From positions 1 through 38,425 of the forward strand of contig JAKSRB010000011.1 in the NCBI GenBank assembly GCA_024403825.1: a stretch of 38,425 nt of DNA. Reading direction: 5' to 3'. The notes under the pieces are model-generated. The model worked only from the letters and a program-made list of their open reading frames with translations. It did no database searches and was not told the DNA's origin. Shown in pieces: positions 4,290 through 29,690 of this stretch. The stretch comes from Ruminococcus sp. (GTDB lineage: Bacteria > Bacillota > Clostridia > Oscillospirales > Acutalibacteraceae). The position numbers and the translations under genes were made by a program. Every line of letters begins with the position of its first letter. Positions within the stretch are counted from its first letter, which is position 1.

Positions 4290-5180
4290 TTACTTATGGT
4301 TTAGTATTTCATTAAAAGCCAAGTGAATACAATCAACTATATTGCTTGGCAGCATTGATATTTTTCCGTACTTCTCTGCGGCAATATCTCCTGCAATCCC
4401 ATGTATAAATGCTCCAGCTATTGCGGATTTGTATGGTTCTGTACCTTGTGCAAGCAATGCTCCGATTATTCCTGCCAATACATCTCCACTTCCGCCTGTT
4501 GCCATTCCTGAGTTACCTGTCGGATTTATGAAAAGCTCTGTTTCATTACTACTGTCAGGCTTGGCTATTATAGTACCTTTCCCTTTTAGGACGCAAATTA
4601 CTCCGTATTGTTCGGCAAATGCTTTGGCGGCTTGCTCTCGGTTGGAGTTTATTTCTTTTATGCTCAGTCCATTAAGTCTGGACATTTCTCCAGGGTGAGG
4701 AGTTATTATTATCGGTGCTTTCGCTTTTTTTAATATTCCTTTGTTTTCGCTGACACAGTTTAATGCATCTGCATCTATTACCATTGGTTTTGTGCAGTTT
4801 TCTATTAAACTGTAAACTACTTTCTTGGTATCCTCACTTACAGACATTCCACAACCGATTAATACTGCCTTTGATGTATTTGCCTGCTCTATCAGAAATG
4901 GGATATTATTTTTGCTGATTTTTCCGTCCTCAGTTTCGTCAAGCGGATAAAATACGCTTTCAAGCATACATTGTGAGGCTATAGGATATATGCTTTTTGG
5001 TAATGCTGTTTTTAATAAGCCAATACCTGACCTTAATGCTCCTTTTCCTGCAAGAATTGATGCTCCTGCCATTCCATAACTGCCACTTATGCTAAGTAGT
5101 GAGCCACAGCTTCCCTTATTTGCATCATCTGGCCGCATATATATTGCATTTTTTACAAGTGTATAATCTGTTATTTTCAT
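4290..5180 (-). CDS. nnrD: ADP-dependent (S)-NAD(P)H-hydrate dehydratase
   Basis: This enzyme repairs hydrated NADH/NADPH in the cytoplasm, using ADP to drive dehydration. The 296-residue protein is a ribokinase-fold YjeF C-terminal domain: GSLLSISGSYGMAGASILAG near the N-terminus, DADALNC (137-143), the TPHPGEMSRL signature (160-169) and GNSGMATGGSGDVLAG (222-237), in which D233 is the catalytic aspartate position. The usual N-terminal epimerase (NnrE) domain is absent, so epimerase must be encoded elsewhere. It starts 5 bases after the preceding gene's stop and ends the leftward operon just before the terminator at 4235-4274. Confidence 0.9.
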   Translation of the reverse strand: MKITDYTLVKNAIYMRPDDANKGSCGSLLSISGSYGMAGASILAGKGALRSGIGLLKTALPKSIYPIASQCMLESVFYPLDETEDGKISKNNIPFLIEQANTSKAVLIGCGMSVSEDTKKVVYSLIENCTKPMVIDADALNCVSENKGILKKAKAPIIITPHPGEMSRLNGLSIKEINSNREQAAKAFAEQYGVICVLKGKGTIIAKPDSSNETELFINPTGNSGMATGGSGDVLAGIIGALLAQGTEPYKSAIAGAFIHGIAGDIAAEKYGKISMLPSNIVDCIHLAFNEILNHK

Positions 5181-5185
5181 AATAA

Positions 5186-5725
5186 TTACGCATCTTTTCT
5201 GTAGAAAAGCTTAATTAATAAATCATGGCTAAGATGCTTTTTCATTCCCTGTAAAGTGTTTTCGTCAGGATTGAAAATCAACAGACATTTGCCATAAGCG
5301 GGGCTGTTAAAGGTTGCATAATAGTTCTCAGCTTCTTTGTCTATATCAGCAGCGGCAATGTATGTTTTTGAAAATCGCATACCATTGATTGTTTTTTCTC
5401 CTTTGCCAAGCTTTTCTATTTCGTTTATTTTTACTTTGCATAATACCTTGCGTTTGCGTAAGGCTATTATTTTTGATACTGTCAGTTCACTGCCAAGAAC
5501 TGAGTATTCAAATTCAACCTTCTGACTTGTAAATACATACCATACTACATATATGCCTATAAGAAATGCAAAAAATCCAATATATATTAAGTAAGGGGTT
5601 ATTACATATGCAAGTGAAATGCATAATGTTGGTACAAGCAACAGCAGTAATATTGATATTATTTTAATAATCAGATTTTTTGGTTTATTTACCCTTTTTA
5701 CAACCTGTTCGTTAAATCCGTCCAA
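5186..5725 (-). CDS. Membrane protein with cytoplasmic domain (DUF6106-like), unknown function
   Basis: With the TTG start at 5725 the protein has 179 residues. It opens LDGFNEQVVKRVNKPKN, followed by two closely spaced membrane segments (IISILLLLLVPTLCISLAYV and LIYIGFFAFLIGIYVVWYVF), then a soluble domain of beta-strand pattern (FEYSVLGSELTVSKIIALRKRK) ending with strands resembling a PH-like fold. I chose TTG because AGGAG sits 8 bases upstream and this start avoids overlap with licD; an ATG at 5788 has no ribosome site and would overlap licD by 35 bases. It resembles a widespread Clostridia family that I recall as DUF6106. Function unknown. Confidence 0.65.
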   Translation of the reverse strand: MDGFNEQVVKRVNKPKNLIIKIISILLLLLVPTLCISLAYVITPYLIYIGFFAFLIGIYVVWYVFTSQKVEFEYSVLGSELTVSKIIALRKRKVLCKVKINEIEKLGKGEKTINGMRFSKTYIAAADIDKEAENYYATFNSPAYGKCLLIFNPDENTLQGMKKHLSHDLLIKLFYRKDA

Positions 5726-5753
5726 ATTCAACACTCCTGATTTAATATGTTTT

Positions 5754-6635
5754 TTATTTTCGTTTTTTATATTTCTGTTTGCTGTCATAGTTTATGCAAG
5801 GAGAGTTTAAGTCAAGATAAGCTATATCATGATGAGGAACTCTGTCTTTTTCAGGCGGCAGCTTCATATAATCTCCAAATACCATTGTCAGATATTCGTC
5901 ATAGCCTGCCATACAGGGCATTTCATAGCCCTCAAAGGTTACATAATCTACACCCTCATATATATGCTTTGGATATTCAACCTTCATCCAATGAGGTCCG
6001 GAACATAATTCTGTTACGCATTTGTTTTCATCAAGGTTATACTGCATCATCTTTTTTTCGCAGAATTGCCATATTTTTCTCCTAAGCTTGTCCCCTCGGA
6101 AAATTCCAAGCAAAACTCTGCTGCCAAATCCGATTATGCCTCCATGATTTTCAGGTACTATCTGTGCAAGAAACAGAGAATACAGCATTGTCCATACATA
6201 CTGCATTTTTCTTGCAAATCTGCTGTCAGGGCAGACATCAAGCGGAAATACATCAAGCACAAGTCCATGAGGTATATCTATATCAATCTGATTTGCCTTT
6301 ACCATTGTGTAGTTTGTATCGGTAATTGTAGTGAATATGTTTCCTGTAAATATATTTTCATCGGTTCTGAGAAGTCTGAAACGGCTGTTTTCATTATGCT
6401 GTTCTTTCCAAAGCTTGGGCAATTTTTCATAATCTGAGCGTGGCATAATTACATCGGCATCATCATCCCAAGGCACAAATCCTCCGTTTCGCAATGCTCC
6501 GATAAGTCCGCCACCGATTAGATATACTTTTAAATTGTTTTTCTTGCAGAAATCCCTGAAATATACAAGCATATCAAGCTGTTTAAGCTGTAATTCCCTC
6601 AATTTTTCCGGTGTAAGTTTTACAAGTTCGGACAT
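5754..6635 (-). CDS. LicD family phosphotransferase / nucleotidyltransferase-fold protein
   Basis: LicD proteins transfer phosphocholine or related phospho-substituents from CDP-activated donors to cell-surface glycans. This 293-residue protein has the family signature at residues 41-61: GGGLIGALRNGGFVPWDDDA followed by D, where the Asp cluster binds metal and nucleotide. A further VLDVFPLDVCPD motif follows near residue 125. GGAG precedes the ATG by about 8 bases. It lies between a GT2 glycosyltransferase and a small membrane protein in one leftward operon, pointing to decoration of an envelope polymer. No choline uptake or CDP-choline genes are present in the window, so the transferred group is undetermined. 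Confidence 0.85.
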   Translation of the reverse strand: MSELVKLTPEKLRELQLKQLDMLVYFRDFCKKNNLKVYLIGGGLIGALRNGGFVPWDDDADVIMPRSDYEKLPKLWKEQHNENSRFRLLRTDENIFTGNIFTTITDTNYTMVKANQIDIDIPHGLVLDVFPLDVCPDSRFARKMQYVWTMLYSLFLAQIVPENHGGIIGFGSRVLLGIFRGDKLRRKIWQFCEKKMMQYNLDENKCVTELCSGPHWMKVEYPKHIYEGVDYVTFEGYEMPCMAGYDEYLTMVFGDYMKLPPEKDRVPHHDIAYLDLNSPCINYDSKQKYKKRK

Positions 6636-22899: not shown

Positions 22900-23358
22900 T
22901 CAGAATAATGTTACGCCAAACATATGCAAAACCCATAATACTATTCCATAAAGTATTGATGTTGCTGTACTATAGACAATTACAGGACCTGCAATGATGA
23001 ACATTTTTGCTCCAAGTCCTGTTACAAATCCCTCTGCCTTAAATTCTATTGACGGTGAGGAAATTGCATTTGCAAAGCCTGTTATCGGTATCAGCGAGCC
23101 TGCTCCTGCCTGTCGTGCTATTTTGTCATATACTCCTGTTGCTGTTAGCAGTATTCCTATAAATATCAGGGTTATTGAGGTTACGGTTTTTGCGGTATCC
23201 TCTTTCATATCAAAATTATTCTGGTATATATTCATTAGTATCTGTCCTACCGTACATATTGCACCTCCGATTAAAAATGCCTTGATACTGTTTGAAAAGC
23301 ATTTGCTGTTGGGGGAGTTTTTCTTGACTAATTCACTGTATTCTTTTTTTGTAACCAT
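22900..23358 (-). CDS. spoVAC: Stage V sporulation protein AC (SpoVAC-like)
   Basis: SpoVAC is an inner-membrane component of the SpoVA channel that moves Ca-dipicolinate during sporulation and germination. The 152-residue length matches. Motifs include SIKAFLIGGAICTVGQILMN (24-43), TGVYDKIARQAGAGSLIPIT and GFANAISSPSIEFKAEGFV, with four to five membrane segments. The neighbours spoVAD and spoVAE, usually adjacent, are not on either side, so this is an isolated copy or a locus split from the rest. The AGGAAAG site lies about 8 bases before the ATG. A forespore-type promoter was sought upstream but not convincingly found. Confidence 0.85.
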   Translation of the reverse strand: MVTKKEYSELVKKNSPNSKCFSNSIKAFLIGGAICTVGQILMNIYQNNFDMKEDTAKTVTSITLIFIGILLTATGVYDKIARQAGAGSLIPITGFANAISSPSIEFKAEGFVTGLGAKMFIIAGPVIVYSTATSILYGIVLWVLHMFGVTLF

Positions 23359-23544: not shown

Positions 23545-24675
23545 TTGGAACATTATCTTGATAATAGTGCAACTACTATGGTTTCTGAAAAATCTGCACA
23601 AAAGGCTTTTGAGATGATGACTGCAAATTACGGAAATCCCTCATCACTTCACGAAAAAGGCAGACTTGCTGAAATTGAATTATCCAATGCACGCAAAGCT
23701 ATTGCAAAGGCTCTTGGAGCAAATTCTGAGGAAATATTTTTTACAAGCGGTGGAACAGAAGCAAATAATACTGCTCTGTTCGGAATTGCTCAGGCTAAAA
23801 AACGCAGGGGCAATAAAATTATTATATCTGCTGTTGAGCATAGCAGTATAATTGAAATGGCAGAATGTCTTGAACAGAAATATGGCTTTTCTGTTTCTTT
23901 GGTAATGCCGAAAAGTGACGGCATTATTCATACGGAAGATGTTCTGGCAGAGGTCGATGATAATACAATTTTGGTTTCTGTTATGCTTGTAAATAACGAA
24001 ACAGGTGCAATTATGCCTGTATCTGAGATTTTTTCTGCTGTTAAACGAAAAAATCCTGATATTGTCTGCCATACCGATGCGGTGCAGGCTTTCGGAAAAA
24101 TGAATATAAATGTTAAAAAGCTGAATGTTGATTTGCTCAGCATTTCTGCACATAAGGTTCACGCTCCAAAAGGCTGCGGAGCTTTGTATATACGCAAGAG
24201 TGTAAGAATTTTACCTATGCATTTTGGTGGGGAACAGGAAAAGAAAATCCGTCCGGGTACGGAGTCAATCCCATTGATTGCCGCCTTTGGTGTTGCCTGC
24301 AACGAGTTTGATATAAATACAAATTTACTGAAAATATCTGAGCTTAACGCATATGCAAAGGAAAAACTACTTGCAATTTCAGGTGTAAGTCTGATTTCAC
24401 CTGATAATTCCCTGCCGTATGTTCTGAATATCTCGGCAGGCAGAGTAAGAAGTGAAACAATGCTTCATTTTCTTGAGGAATCTGAAATTTATATTTCGTC
24501 AGGCAGTGCCTGTGCAAAGGGCAAGCCAAGTCATACTCTGAAAGCCTTGGGAATAAGCAATGAAATAGCAGATAGTGCGTTGAGAATCAGCTTTTCAAAA
24601 TATAATACAAAAGATGACATTGATGCATTGTGCATGGAAATAAGCAGAGGTTTATCCGTTCTTGCACACTCATAA
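23545..24675 (+). CDS. Cysteine desulfurase, NifS/IscS-like
   Basis: A PLP enzyme that takes sulfur from cysteine as a persulfide. The 376-residue protein begins at TTG 23545, after AGGAGG at 23531-23536; no ATG fits. It opens YLDNSATTMVS, with SGGTEANNTAL (68-78), EHSS (98-101), the PLP lysine K204 in SAHKVHAPKG, and catalytic C323 in SSGSACAKGKPSH. The thiI gene follows 30 bases downstream, the usual arrangement for a dedicated sulfur donor (NifZ-type) to ThiI in tRNA 4-thiouridine synthesis. That pairing argues against a main role in Fe-S assembly. Confidence 0.93.
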   Translation: MEHYLDNSATTMVSEKSAQKAFEMMTANYGNPSSLHEKGRLAEIELSNARKAIAKALGANSEEIFFTSGGTEANNTALFGIAQAKKRRGNKIIISAVEHSSIIEMAECLEQKYGFSVSLVMPKSDGIIHTEDVLAEVDDNTILVSVMLVNNETGAIMPVSEIFSAVKRKNPDIVCHTDAVQAFGKMNINVKKLNVDLLSISAHKVHAPKGCGALYIRKSVRILPMHFGGEQEKKIRPGTESIPLIAAFGVACNEFDINTNLLKISELNAYAKEKLLAISGVSLISPDNSLPYVLNISAGRVRSETMLHFLEESEIYISSGSACAKGKPSHTLKALGISNEIADSALRISFSKYNTKDDIDALCMEISRGLSVLAHS

Positions 24676-24705: not shown

Positions 24706-25890
24706 ATGAAAGAAATTTTACTTCTGAAGGATGGCGAAATCGTTCTTAAAGGCTTGAACCGCCGTTCATTTGAAGATGTACTTAAAAAGAATCTTAAATA
24801 TGCTTTAAGCGATTTGGGCAGTTTTGAAATAAAATCCGCCCAGTCAACTATATATGTAAGACCACTTGATGATGATATTGACCTTGATGATGCGTGTGAG
24901 CGTGTTTCAAGAGTTTTCGGTATTGTGGCATTCTCAAGGGCTGTTGTTTGTGAGGAAAAAACTCTTGAATCAATCCTTGCCACTGCTCCTGTTTATCTTG
25001 CCGACAGCCTTAACGGAGTTAAGACCTTTAAGGTTGAGGCTAAACGAAGTGATAAGCGTTTTCCTTATAAATCTCCTGAAATCTGCCGAGAGGTGGGCGG
25101 TGTATTGCTGCAGAGCTTCCCACATCTTTCTGTTGATGTTCATAATCCTGATATGGTGGTTAATGTTGAGGTTCGTGATTTTGGAGCATACATCCATGGT
25201 AAGCCTTTAAAGGGTGCAGGTGGTATTCCTGTAGGAACTGGCGGTAATGCCGCTATCCTTATCAGCGGTGGTATTGATTCCCCTGTTGCGGCATATATGA
25301 TGGCTAAGCGTGGCGTAAAGCTTACGGCAATTCATTTTGCAAGTCCGCCATATACAAGCAAGCGTGCCGAAGAAAAGGTTGTAAGACTTTTGCAGAAGGT
25401 TTGCAGATATTCAGGCAGAATGAAGATGTACACCGTTCCGTTTACCAAAATTCAGGAAAAAATTAAAAATGAATGTCCTGAGGAGCTTTTCACAATTATT
25501 ATGCGTAGGCTTATGATGAAAATTTCCAGCAGGATTGCCACTGATAATGATTGCTCTGCTTTGATTACAGGTGAAAGCCTCGGTCAGGTGGCAAGCCAGA
25601 CTATTAACGCTCTTGGCTGTACTGATGCAGCGGCAGATATGCTTGTGTTCAGACCTTTGATAGGTATGGACAAGCAGGAAATTATAGATATTTCCTATAA
25701 AATAGATACTTACGAAACCTCGATTGAGCCTTATGAGGATTGCTGTACGGTGTTCACTCCCAAGCACCCTCGCACAAAGCCTGTTTTGAAGTATGTTGAA
25801 TATGCCGAAGAGGAGGCAGGTTTTGACGAACTTATACAGGAGGCTCTTGATAATTTGAAAATTACAAAAATTACAGCAGACAATGATTGA
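24706..25890 (+). CDS. thiI: tRNA 4-thiouridine synthase ThiI
   Basis: ThiI adenylates U8 of tRNA and inserts sulfur. The 394-residue protein has an N-terminal ferredoxin-like domain (MKEILLLKDGEIVLKGLNRR), a THUMP domain (about 60-165, with FKVEAKRSDKRFP), and the PP-loop SGGIDSPVA (187-195). GESLGQVASQT follows. It lacks the C-terminal rhodanese domain of the E. coli protein, as is usual in Gram-positives. Sulfur is expected to come from the desulfurase encoded just upstream. The sortase gene starts 21 bases downstream, so transcription probably continues into it. Confidence 0.94.
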   Translation: MKEILLLKDGEIVLKGLNRRSFEDVLKKNLKYALSDLGSFEIKSAQSTIYVRPLDDDIDLDDACERVSRVFGIVAFSRAVVCEEKTLESILATAPVYLADSLNGVKTFKVEAKRSDKRFPYKSPEICREVGGVLLQSFPHLSVDVHNPDMVVNVEVRDFGAYIHGKPLKGAGGIPVGTGGNAAILISGGIDSPVAAYMMAKRGVKLTAIHFASPPYTSKRAEEKVVRLLQKVCRYSGRMKMYTVPFTKIQEKIKNECPEELFTIIMRRLMMKISSRIATDNDCSALITGESLGQVASQTINALGCTDAAADMLVFRPLIGMDKQEIIDISYKIDTYETSIEPYEDCCTVFTPKHPRTKPVLKYVEYAEEEAGFDELIQEALDNLKITKITADND

Positions 25891-25911: not shown

Positions 25912-27900
25912 GTGGATATTGAAATTTTGTCTGTAACAGGCGATGCTGATATTAATAAGCTACAGAGCCGTTCAAATGAATTGCGTTCCTGTCTGACTGA
26001 TTTTGGCTTTAATCTTACTTATATTACAAAGGTTAAAGCTGGAGCGACAAATATACATAAACAGCTTGAGCTTAGTGCATCATCTCCTGCAAAGCCTGAT
26101 ATTATACTGATTTCAGATGTTTTAGATACAAAGGATAATACTTCATTTAAAAAGAATTTTGCAGAATCTGTAATGGCGGCTGAAAAAGCAGTAAATACAC
26201 CTGTTCCAAAAAACTACTGGAGAAAAAGAAATGCGGCTTTTCGCAAAGCAAGAAATGCCTGTGCTTCTCACGAGGATTTAAAGCTGATTGAAAAGGAATT
26301 TAAGGTATATCGCAAAAAGTCAAGAGTTTTCAGCCTTGGAGATTTTGGTGGTGGCTATCGTGGCTACTGCTTTATGTACAAGGGGATTAAGGTCGGAGTT
26401 CTTCCCAAGCGTGAGCTTACGGGTGTGGATATTTGTGAGATATATCCGCTTGCCGCAATAAGAATTAAGGAAGTATTTCAAAATTCTGCGGAGGAATATC
26501 CTGAGGGATTTAGCACAAGAGAGTATATTCCGCCAAAAACAGGATTTGTGCATCAGTATATTCCTTTGAGAGATGACAGCGGTAAGGAAATTGCAAGAAA
26601 ATGCGTTGTTATTGTGGCTTTTCTTGTGTTTGTAGGTGCTTTGTCATTACTTATATATAATACTGCTTTTCTAAGTGTTCAGAATACCCAGCTTAATATG
26701 GAAATTCAACGCATTGCTCACCAGACTGCAACTACCCCTCAGGGTGAGGAAATTCCTGATGTCAGCGAGGGTATTAACTGGGATGCATTGAAGGATATTA
26801 ATAAAGAAATTGTCGGTTGGATTACTGTCAACGATACTCAGGTTGATTATCCTGTTTTATGGCGAAAGGATGATACTCCGACTTATCAGTATTATCTGTC
26901 GCATAACTATAAAGGTAATTATGATTCATACGGCAGTATCTTTGTTGATTACCGTTGTACTGAGGGTACGAAAAGCAAAAACCTTGTATTGCATGGTCAT
27001 CATATGAATGACGGTTCAATGTTCGGAGAGCTTATGAAGTACGGAAGTACCTCAGGTAATCTGGATTTCTATGAGGATGTTCCTACTCTTAGATTTGATA
27101 CACCTGACGGCGAGGGAACTTATAAAATAATTTCTATCTTCAAGACAAATACACTTTCAGGTCATGGCGAGTTTTTTAACTATATGATAGGCAATTTTCA
27201 GAACGAAAAGGATTTTATGAACTATGTTTATAATGTCCGTATCCGTTCACTTATCAACTGCCCAGTAGATGTTAATGAAGATGATGAGCTGATTACTCTT
27301 TCAACCTGTTCATATGAATTTACAAATTTCAGAACAGTTGTTGTCGCTCGAAAGGTGCGTAAGGGTGAGTCAGCAAAGGTTGATGTATCTCAGGCATCTG
27401 TAAATAAAAGTGCCGTATGGCCTGATGTTTTCTATTCGGTTTATGGTGGAAAGCGTCCTAAGGTAACTGATTTCTGTACAGCCTATGAGGCAGGCGAAAT
27501 TGATTGGTATAATGGTGAATATGATTTCAAGGAGCAGAAGATTGTTACAACTTCACCGACAACCAAGCCTGACGAAGAGGAAACTACTCAGGCAGAAGAA
27601 CCTCAGACAGAAGCTCCTGCAACTGAAGAGCCTACAGAAGAGCCGACAACTGCTCCGATAATATATCTTACAGTCAATTTTATTAACTATGACGGTTCAA
27701 ATATTTCCACTCAGCAGGTAGAGTATGGAAAGGCTGCAAAAGCTCCTGAGGACCCTAAAAAACCAAGTGATGATTATTATGATTATGTGTTTAAGGGCTG
27801 GCAGCTTGAATTTAACAATGTAACTGTTGATATGACCATTGCTCCGAATTTTGAGCCTGTACCAAAGGAGCAACCATATAATAGTCAGGACGGAGGATAA
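25912..27900 (+). CDS. Class B sortase with cytoplasmic MoCF/CinA-like N-terminal domain and InlB-type repeat
   Basis: The 662-residue protein starts at GTG 25912 behind AAGGGGG. Residues 1-225 form a soluble domain with the layout of MoCF/CinA N-terminal domains (MDIEILSVTG, PDIILISDVLDTKDNTSF, then FMYKGIKVGVLPKRELTG); this match is my inference. Membrane segment 230-255. Residues 285-485 are an intact class B sortase: GWITVNDTQVDYPVL, catalytic H363 in LHGHHM, C466 in LSTCSYEF and R474. A Thr/Glu/Pro-rich linker (545-582) leads to an InlB B-repeat-like unit (586-632, ending VFKGW). Ordinary sortase B has only an N-terminal anchor, so both extensions are unusual. No LPxTG-like substrate was found in the window. 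Confidence 0.85.
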   Translation: MDIEILSVTGDADINKLQSRSNELRSCLTDFGFNLTYITKVKAGATNIHKQLELSASSPAKPDIILISDVLDTKDNTSFKKNFAESVMAAEKAVNTPVPKNYWRKRNAAFRKARNACASHEDLKLIEKEFKVYRKKSRVFSLGDFGGGYRGYCFMYKGIKVGVLPKRELTGVDICEIYPLAAIRIKEVFQNSAEEYPEGFSTREYIPPKTGFVHQYIPLRDDSGKEIARKCVVIVAFLVFVGALSLLIYNTAFLSVQNTQLNMEIQRIAHQTATTPQGEEIPDVSEGINWDALKDINKEIVGWITVNDTQVDYPVLWRKDDTPTYQYYLSHNYKGNYDSYGSIFVDYRCTEGTKSKNLVLHGHHMNDGSMFGELMKYGSTSGNLDFYEDVPTLRFDTPDGEGTYKIISIFKTNTLSGHGEFFNYMIGNFQNEKDFMNYVYNVRIRSLINCPVDVNEDDELITLSTCSYEFTNFRTVVVARKVRKGESAKVDVSQASVNKSAVWPDVFYSVYGGKRPKVTDFCTAYEAGEIDWYNGEYDFKEQKIVTTSPTTKPDEEETTQAEEPQTEAPATEEPTEEPTTAPIIYLTVNFINYDGSNISTQQVEYGKAAKAPEDPKKPSDDYYDYVFKGWQLEFNNVTVDMTIAPNFEPVPKEQPYNSQDGG

Positions 27901-27902
27901 TT

Positions 27903-28304
27903 TTGGATTGTGGGTTAATATTTTATTCAGCAAGAAAAACTTCATTTTGTGAGCGTTCACTTTGTAAAAGCTTTTCAGAGCTGGGTCTGAATTTACAGAA
28001 TACAGCCTTCGCTATTGATAACAAAGGTGTAGGTTCATTGATTATTGACACATTTAAAAAATGTAATATAATATTTATTATCGCAAATCTCAGCGTTGAT
28101 GATAAAAAAGGTATCAAGTATATTTTATCAAATGCACTTTCAAATGTGAGTGTTGATGAATGTAAAAAGCTGAAAAATGATTTGGGCGAGGACGGATATG
28201 TAATAAGGGCTGAAAATCAGTTTATGATTGTACTTCCGGACGAGCCTGAACAGATTGAGGCAATTATGCAGGGCCCGATAGGCAGATATATCTTGATGAA
28301 ATAA
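27903..28304 (+). CDS. Small protein, possibly related to the sortase N-terminal domain
   Basis: The 133-residue protein starts at TTG 27903, with GGAGG 6 bases upstream, and only two bases after the sortase stop. It reads LIFYSARKTSFCERSLCKSF, then CNIIFIIANLSVDDKKGIKY, then AENQFMIVLPDEPEQIEAIM. This order (opening strand, central strand with an Asp-rich turn, then a LP-x-E/P-type loop) parallels both MoCF/CinA domains and residues 1-175 of the sortase, suggesting a divergent paralogue. The resemblance is weak and needs structural comparison. The tight spacing argues that the two proteins work together. Confidence 0.6.
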   Translation: MDCGLIFYSARKTSFCERSLCKSFSELGLNLQNTAFAIDNKGVGSLIIDTFKKCNIIFIIANLSVDDKKGIKYILSNALSNVSVDECKKLKNDLGEDGYVIRAENQFMIVLPDEPEQIEAIMQGPIGRYILMK

Positions 28305-28347: not shown

Positions 28348-29601
28348 ATGAAGACAAACACATTTGAACAGTATGAATCCAAGGTTCGCTCATATTGCAG
28401 ACATTTTCCAAAGGTATTTACTGAGGCTAAGGGTGCTGTAATGACAGACGAGGACGGAGTAAAATATATTGACTTTTTCTGCGGTGCAGGTGCAGTCAAC
28501 TATGGTCATAACAATGATTATATAAAGAGCAAGGTTATTGACTATATTTCAACTGACGGAATTATTCATGCACTTGATATGTACACAGTTCCTAAGAGAG
28601 AGTTTATTGATACACTTGAAACAAAAATCATTGAGCCAAGAGGTTATAAGTATAAAATTCAGTTCACAGGTCCTACAGGTACCAACGGTATTGAAGCAGC
28701 CATAAAGCTTGCAAGAAAAAACAAGAGAAGAAGAAATATTTTTGCATTTATGGGTTGTTTCCATGGAATGACACTTGGTTCTCTGTCACTTACCTCTGAA
28801 ATGTATGCAAGAAACGGTGCCGGTGCATCTCTTAATGATTGTACACATATTCCAGCTCCATATATGTTTGAGGGACTTGATGTAATCGAGTATATGCAGA
28901 CACTTATTGATGATGACCATTCTGCTGTTGAAAAGCCTGCCGCTGTTGTTATGGAAACTGTTCAGGCTGAGGGTGGTATTCGGGTATTCAGCGATGATTT
29001 TCTCAAAGCTGTAAGAGAGTTCTGTACTAAAAATGATATTTTAATGATTGTTGATGATGTTCAGGTTGGTTGCTGCAGAGCAGGTCATTTCTTTTCATTT
29101 GAAAGAGCAGGCATTGAACCTGATATTGTTGTAATGTCTAAATCAATCGGTGGTATTGGTATGCCACTTGCAATAGTTCTCCTCAAGGAAGAGCTTGATA
29201 ACTGGAAGCCAGGTGAGCATAACGGTACTTTCAGAGGTAATCAGCTTTCATTTGTTGCTGGTAAAGCCGCAATAGATTATCTTCTTGAAAATGATGTCGA
29301 GGCTGAAACAAGGCGTAAGGGTCAGCTTGTTAAAGAGTTTGTTGAGAAAAATATCCTACCGCTTGATTCAAGAATTAAGCTCAGAGGAATTGGACTTATC
29401 TGGGGTATTGATTTTGCAGGCGTAAGAGGCGATTTGTCAGAAAAAATAATTGAAAAGTGCTTTGAAAAGAATCTTATCTGTGAATGTGCAGGTCGTCAAG
29501 GCTCAGTTATAAAGATTATGCCTCCACTTGTTATTGAGGACGAGCTTTTAATCAAAGGTCTTAATATTCTCGCAGATGCGGTTAAAAAGTCTTTAAAATA
29601 A
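28348..29601 (+). CDS. ectB: Diaminobutyrate-2-oxoglutarate aminotransferase, EctB-like
   Basis: This class III PLP aminotransferase converts aspartate semialdehyde to L-2,4-diaminobutyrate in the EctB family. The 417-residue protein matches that subgroup: FEQYESKVRSYCRHFPKVF, YIDFFCGAGAVNYGHN (40-55), IQFTGPTGTNGIEAA (104-118), AFMGCFHGMTLGSLSLTS, D236 in VDDVQVGCCRAGHFFSFE, and PLP lysine K265 in MSKSIGG. No ectA or ectC is adjacent, so ectoine synthesis is not indicated here. Diaminobutyrate for a peptide, siderophore or peptidoglycan cross-bridge are alternatives. It lies 43 bases after the small gene and may be the last gene of the desulfurase operon. Confidence 0.85.
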   Translation: MKTNTFEQYESKVRSYCRHFPKVFTEAKGAVMTDEDGVKYIDFFCGAGAVNYGHNNDYIKSKVIDYISTDGIIHALDMYTVPKREFIDTLETKIIEPRGYKYKIQFTGPTGTNGIEAAIKLARKNKRRRNIFAFMGCFHGMTLGSLSLTSEMYARNGAGASLNDCTHIPAPYMFEGLDVIEYMQTLIDDDHSAVEKPAAVVMETVQAEGGIRVFSDDFLKAVREFCTKNDILMIVDDVQVGCCRAGHFFSFERAGIEPDIVVMSKSIGGIGMPLAIVLLKEELDNWKPGEHNGTFRGNQLSFVAGKAAIDYLLENDVEAETRRKGQLVKEFVEKNILPLDSRIKLRGIGLIWGIDFAGVRGDLSEKIIEKCFEKNLICECAGRQGSVIKIMPPLVIEDELLIKGLNILADAVKKSLK

Positions 29602-29622
29602 GTTTTATTAATAATAATAAAT

Positions 29623-29660
29623 CAGGGCAATAATGCATTTTGAAATGCATTATTGCCCTG
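29623..29660. terminator. Perfect 18-bp hairpin between ectB and folT
   Basis: 29623-29640 is the exact reverse complement of 29643-29660, with a 2-base centre. It lies between convergent genes and probably serves both as terminator, though the T-runs that follow are short (GTTT on the plus side, TTTATTATTATT on the minus side). Confidence 0.7.
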
Positions 29661-29690
29661 AGTGTTTAGTGAGATATTAAAATAAGTTTT

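Follow-up and report, generated by a model that had tools for sequence, protein, structure and literature searches.

A class B sortase with a predicted CinA-like cytoplasmic domain at the thiI locus of Ruminococcus

The sequence analysed here (the window) is a stretch of 38,425 nucleotides from a Ruminococcus sp. (GenBank assembly GCA_024403825.1, contig JAKSRB010000011.1). It encodes a class B sortase of 662 amino acids (aa) whose first 228 residues (the N-domain) are predicted, from profile alignment and structural modelling, to adopt the COG1058/MoCF fold and to be homologous to the corresponding domain of CinA. A second predicted MoCF-fold protein, P133, starts 2 bases past the sortase stop codon. 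Sortases are usually regarded as enzymes whose cytoplasmic part is a short tail; the parts found here are known, but their combination is new to us. The interpretation that we favour, at a little better than even, is that a retired CinA domain has been reused as a non-enzymatic cytoplasmic module, whose partner is P133 or a second copy of itself and which acts on the sortase. The features concerned are as follows.

25912..27900, + strand: class B sortase with predicted cytoplasmic MoCF-like domain (662 aa, GTG start)
25912..26595, + strand: N-domain, residues 1-228, predicted COG1058/MoCF fold, catalytically degenerate
26596..26664, + strand: single membrane segment, approximately residues 229-251 (hydropathy)
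26821..27357, + strand: sortase catalytic domain, residues 304-482 (PF04203)
26998-27000, 27307-27309 and 27331-27333, + strand: codons of the catalytic triad H363, C466 and R474 (conservation)
27670..27813, + strand: weak Flg_new/InlB-type repeat, residues 587-634, past the stalk (PF09479)
27903..28304, + strand: P133, separate protein of predicted MoCF fold (133 aa, start codon TTG; hhalign, AlphaFold2, Foldseek)

The protein was assigned to class B by the NCBIfam profile TIGR03064 (169.2 bits, cut-off 153.75) and its catalytic domain by Pfam profile PF04203 (E 5.9e-11, 42.6 bits, cut-off 26.6). A preliminary description, made from the sequence alone, had reported an intact triad at H363, C466 and R474, and these positions proved right, with conservation in 134, 133 and 132, respectively, of 135 aligned sortase rows. 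It had also placed about 225 residues ahead of the membrane segment, in agreement with the 228 found; the sole 19-residue stretch with a mean hydropathy above 1.6 covers residues 225-257, with a peak of 2.86 at residue 231. A single N-terminal hydrophobic segment, taken with the usual SrtB topology, suggests that residues 1-228 are cytoplasmic (N-in). A G-rich stretch lies upstream of the GTG start, and the majority of relatives' sortase frames begin at, or a few residues from, this codon. Past the catalytic domain, the T/P/E-rich stalk that had been described is visible at approximately residues 545-585, while the InlB-type repeat is weaker than had been stated, its match to PF09479 (E 2.8e-4, 21.4 bits) falling under the cut-off of 27. 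When nine other sortases (L097, which has no N-terminal domain, and eight that have one) were scanned at E <=0.01, a trace of Flg_new was seen only in L045 (E 0.005), and L092 had Big_2 instead. A tblastn search of plasmids with the window sortase returned 25 records, and the five matches listed were all confined to residues 229-490. The window genome contains nine sortase matches, so that counts of NPxTN/NPxTG motifs would not assign a substrate to any one of them; L178, a 262-aa sortase of this genome, has approximately 8 residues ahead of the matched block.

Homology of the N-domain to CinA was detected with a profile of 33 N-domain sequences, from which the six of 39 that exceed 262 aa (L032, L050, L051, L083, L092 and L093) were omitted. 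The profile aligned to the COG1058/MoCF domain of CinA (hhalign probability 97.6 %, E 4.6e-12; five controls, <=3.7 %) and matched neither of the remaining CinA domains (KH, 0.2 %; PncC, 0.1 %). CinA structures were the top structural matches of an AlphaFold2 model of the N-domain (predicted local distance difference test, pLDDT, 90), with residues 195-228 barely within the fold matches. Both results bear out the likeness to MoCF/CinA that the preliminary description had proposed for the N terminus, a MoCF fold having come out of the profile and structure comparisons and not an unrelated one. As a single sequence, the window N-domain gave no match to the MoCF profile and none in NCBIfam; neither it nor the window P133 matched PF00994 (MoCF_biosynth), and no KH or PncC match was found by Pfam in the sortase chain. 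Sub-threshold Pfam matches of the N-domain to VWA_CoxE and DUF7242 were dropped in view of the CinA profile and structure matches. Alignment A1 comprised 28 of 30 rows, the distant L051 and L059 being omitted. Long low-complexity linkers separate the N-domain from the membrane segment in L051 and L083, the latter having 447 residues before the segment.

P133, whose open reading frame (ORF) at 27903-28304 had been overlooked in the preliminary description, is likewise predicted to have a MoCF fold. Its family profile aligned to the MoCF domain of CinA (hhalign E 8.6e-14), its AlphaFold2 model (pLDDT 94.2) gave Foldseek matches to MoeA and CinA down to 7.6e-6, and its homologues in genomes G010, G013 and G028 exceed the PF00994 cut-off. 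By eye, the P133-type protein of L094-L097 terminates in a hydrophobic stretch.

The two proteins are embedded in a conserved run of genes, in the order nifS, thiI, sortase, P133 and EctB-like aminotransferase. The neighbouring genes of the window are listed here.

23545..24675, + strand: nifS-like cysteine desulfurase, at the head of the conserved run (PF00266, 2.9e-77)
24706..25890, + strand: thiI, tRNA 4-thiouridine synthase, which anchors the locus (TIGR00342, 379.5 bits, cut-off 264.5)
28348..29601, + strand: EctB-like diaminobutyrate aminotransferase, the next gene in many loci (NF006733, 582 bits)

With the N-domain as query, 30 of 59 genomes gave a match; these include the window's own, and all belong to the window genus (g1, 36 genomes searched), which we take to be Ruminococcus_E. 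In each of the 29 g1 loci besides the window, nifS and thiI lie upstream of the sortase; P133 lies downstream in 26, and the remaining three (L035, L049 and L054) stop at a contig end. Six g1 genomes had no search match. Four of these (G015, G020, G022 and G033) have thiI, P133 and a sortase with 203-447 residues ahead of its membrane segment, G030 has the sortase end and P133 only, and the contig of G019 stops just past thiI. Many of the genomes are incomplete draft assemblies, so calls of absence are weak. In a collection of named genomes, which overlaps the first set (L115 is G002 and L140 is G032), 53 loci were found, among them those of Ruminococcus bromii YE282, ATCC 27255 and 5AMG. The N-domain and sortase share one ORF in 52 of the 53, P133 follows in 50 (L116, L130 and L135 run off the contig) and an EctB-like gene lies past the sortase in 36.

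The regions taken from relatives for comparison were selected for high similarity or long frames, with a few controls; they show which architectures occur and give no measure of their frequency. Relatives with nifS, thiI, cinA and srtB as separate genes exist, and thiI-cinA-srtB is unfused in other genera of the window's family (L098, L099, L100, L103, L104 and L111). Still within that family, the cinA and srtB frames of L174 and L175 overlap by 4 bases when each frame is begun at its earliest start codon, and L171, L172 and L176 have the order thiI-pncC-srtB. Among ten proteins scanned with Pfam, five (L073, L106, L165, L168 and L170) are full fusions with PF00994, PF18146, PF02464 and PF04203 in one ORF, two are partial fusions (L169, MoCF, KH and sortase; L166, KH and sortase), two carry PncC and sortase only (L060 and L063) and L167 has the sortase alone of these domains. 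L166 and L167 nevertheless align to MoCF by hhalign (95.2 and 94.0 %; PncC control, <=0.8 %), and BLAST adds four full CinA-sortase fusions (L105, L107, L108 and L109). Taken together, these matches indicate that CinA-type parts have been joined to a sortase in families f1, f4, f9, f15, f23 and f26. Several of the full fusions sit at the same spot, downstream of thiI. Neither thiI nor cinA was seen in the sortase regions L101, L102, L178 and L181, which speaks against a fixed link.

One genome was sampled from each of 23 other families in the order (G036-G058). The next recognised gene past thiI was a full cinA in nine, a CinA-sortase fusion in one, a PncC-sortase fusion in two, pncC alone in two and none of these gene types in nine (gap of 797 bases in G040; contig end near thiI in G039). 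On a thiI tree of 58 rows, consisting of eight representatives of the window genus and the rows with a ThiI longer than 300 aa (L095, L105, L109, L110 and L172 lack one), the fused state requires at least seven changes, gains not being told from losses; this count is rough because 23 of the 55 inner branches are weak.

Other arrangements were seen among the relatives. The N-terminal region of 248 residues in the L177 sortase (4835-6550) was tried as a CinA fusion and not counted (hhalign against MoCF, 4.4 %); it is possibly a further type of cytoplasmic domain. A long open frame of another family, L173, proved to hold an ordinary CinA of 417 aa. In L171, L172 and L183, two or three class B sortases stand in tandem after thiI-pncC; some of those in L171 and L172 have long low-complexity cytoplasmic tails in place of a folded domain. 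A SpoIID-like domain (PF08486) lies past the sortase domain in L165 (2.1e-7), with a match below the cut-off in L167 (0.001).

The catalytic signature of COG1058 enzymes has been lost from both MoCF copies of the window genus. The motifs GxEx3G and GG[LI]GPx3D hold the catalytic residues of these enzymes, and replacing any one of three acidic residues with alanine abolished the activity of the Agrobacterium tumefaciens protein (PMC3680494). Motif counts were compared with 23 CinA rows, defined by BLAST E <1e-20 to the MoCF domain plus a PncC match, which include six intact fusions and none of L165-L184. GxEx3G is present in all 23 CinA MoCF domains, in 0/33 N-domains and in 0/37 P133 sequences. 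GG[LI]GPx3D is likewise absent from the 33 N-domains and 37 P133 sequences and present in 19/23 CinA domains, the other four being f4 fusions that carry GGLGGT. P133 retains a GG[LIF] turn in 35 of the 37. In the f26 fusions the motifs are damaged (L165 and L169) or gone (L166 and L167). A uniform substitute motif in the old active-site loop is not claimed, as a strict NAL..D.SSF-like pattern was found in only 12 of the 33 N-domains. No frame with both PF00994 and PF02464 was found in any of the 36 g1 genomes. In 34 of them, PncC was matched by a frame of 170-278 aa that lies on a different contig from thiI.

Despite the loss of these motifs, the N-domain and P133 are both under purifying selection. 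Ratios of nonsynonymous to synonymous substitution (dN/dS, Nei-Gojobori) were computed for 16 of 24 pairs, and removal of values with dS >=1.5 or undefined left 14 pairs per median. The median was 0.10 for the N-domain, 0.14 for P133 and 0.11 for the C-terminal tail, and 0.05 for both the sortase and ThiI.

The gene order in relatives, running from separate genes through full fusions to decayed fusions or PncC only, suggests that the N-domain descends from CinA. The arrangement thiI-cinA-srtB would be the older state. In the window lineage CinA would have been taken apart: PncC would now be encoded separately at another place, and of two MoCF copies one would be joined to the sortase and the other would be P133. 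The pair of N-domain and P133 would no longer hydrolyse nucleotide and may serve as a non-enzymatic cytoplasmic module, while the extracellular half would stay an ordinary active sortase. In Thermus CinA the COG1058 domains form a two-fold dimer (PMC4246079), so that P133, or else a second copy of the N-domain, is the most likely partner of the fused N-domain; P133, being co-encoded, co-conserved and predicted to share the fold, is the obvious candidate. Such pairing could cluster or position the sortase on the cytoplasmic side of the membrane, or gate it there, much as gephyrin and Glp act with their membrane partners. Animal gephyrin and corynebacterial Glp, which has an altered active site, are MoCF-fold scaffolds at the membrane that derive from MoeA (PMC11733289), and plant FAD synthetase keeps an inactivated pyrophosphatase domain (PMC9678776).

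The favoured reuse as a non-enzymatic module was weighed against several alternatives. The preliminary description had supposed a sensor of an intracellular ligand, in which the MoCF cleft would bind a nucleotide (ADP-ribose, nicotinamide mononucleotide or a nicotinamide adenine dinucleotide (NAD) type) without hydrolysing it and relay a signal to the sortase by way of the membrane helix. In favour, CinA acts in NAD recycling (PMC4246079, PMC3680494), the GG[LIF] turn is kept in nearly all P133 sequences, the N-domain loop has been rebuilt to the NAL..D.SSF-like form in part of the family, and plant FADS1 is said to bind flavin noncatalytically in a modelled site (PMC9678776). However, the supposition lost ground with the absence of both signature motifs from every N-domain; the substitute loop is not uniform across the family and signalling by a single-pass helix is unproven, and we consider a sensor unlikely. 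Much the same low probability is given to a neutral fusion, in which the decayed domain persists only because the sortase has come to need it in order to fold, be expressed or insert into the membrane. Because cinA and srtB adjoin and sometimes overlap, stop-codon loss could join them repeatedly, and the 4-base overlaps, the changes of state on the thiI tree and the variation by lineage in the CinA part retained are all consistent with this. The dN/dS of approximately 0.10 for the N-domain and the co-conservation, within the window genus, of a second MoCF copy beside the fused one argue against it.

A more elaborate proposal, which is doubtful, is that a heterodimer of dead CinA-derived domains (the fused copy and P133) reads an NAD-derived nucleotide at the membrane and gates surface-protein anchoring. 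On this proposal CinA and sortase would have become coupled several times in the order because the state of NAD recycling and surface assembly are functionally linked. It is very improbable that the N-domain or P133 is a still-active pyrophosphatase with altered residues: the fold is kept, but the signature motifs are absent from both and substitution of any one of the three acidic residues is sufficient to kill the A. tumefaciens enzyme (PMC3680494). That the N-domain has some other Rossmann-like fold unrelated to MoCF is scarcely credible given its CinA profile alignment, its structural matches and its position downstream of thiI, where relatives carry cinA.

In its catalytic domain, triad and N-terminal membrane anchor the window protein resembles SrtB (TIGR03064), to which it adds a folded domain of 228 residues, predicted to be cytoplasmic, and a stalk and variable part past the catalytic domain. 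It shares with CinA the predicted MoCF fold of the N-domain and P133 and the spot downstream of thiI, but lacks KH, PncC and the catalytic motifs and is membrane-tethered to a sortase. Plant FADS1, in contrast, is a metabolic enzyme, and we know of no link between it and the membrane or cell surface. It is similar in that a COG1058 domain was fused to another enzyme, inactivated and kept (PMC3680494, PMC9678776). The likeness to gephyrin and Glp is that of a MoCF-fold protein as a scaffold at the inner membrane face, which is experimental there and inferred here (PMC11733289); theirs is derived from MoeA and binds a membrane partner, whereas that of the window would be derived from CinA and is fused to the sortase.

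COG1058 domains are described as stand-alone proteins or as fusions with PncC or FAD synthase, and sortase is not among the partners named in the excerpted text of PMC3680494. No CinA-sortase fusion was found in the titles and abstract openings of literature on sortases, CinA, ThiI and R. bromii, which covered few subscription journals; the architecture is common within the genus, and no characterisation of it was found in this literature. The locus appears to record how a metabolic enzyme was captured beside a sortase, became fused to it and was retained after losing its catalytic function; some living relatives may represent intermediates. It is a likely case, besides Glp, of reuse of the MoCF fold at a bacterial membrane, and gives the thiI-cinA neighbourhood a connection to the cell surface. 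The amylosome scaffoldins Sca2 and Sca5 of R. bromii bear sortase signals (PMC5814915), and because the genus includes this species the module is testable in a gut bacterium of established interest.

Two further features border the gene run.

29622..29661, no strand assigned: 18-pair hairpin past the gene run (consensus scan only; terminator-like on the - strand)

This hairpin is a possible shared end of convergent genes. At the other side, 22900-23358 on the opposite strand, adjoining the locus, encodes a homologue of the SpoVAC/SpoVAEB sporulation membrane proteins (4.8e-42).
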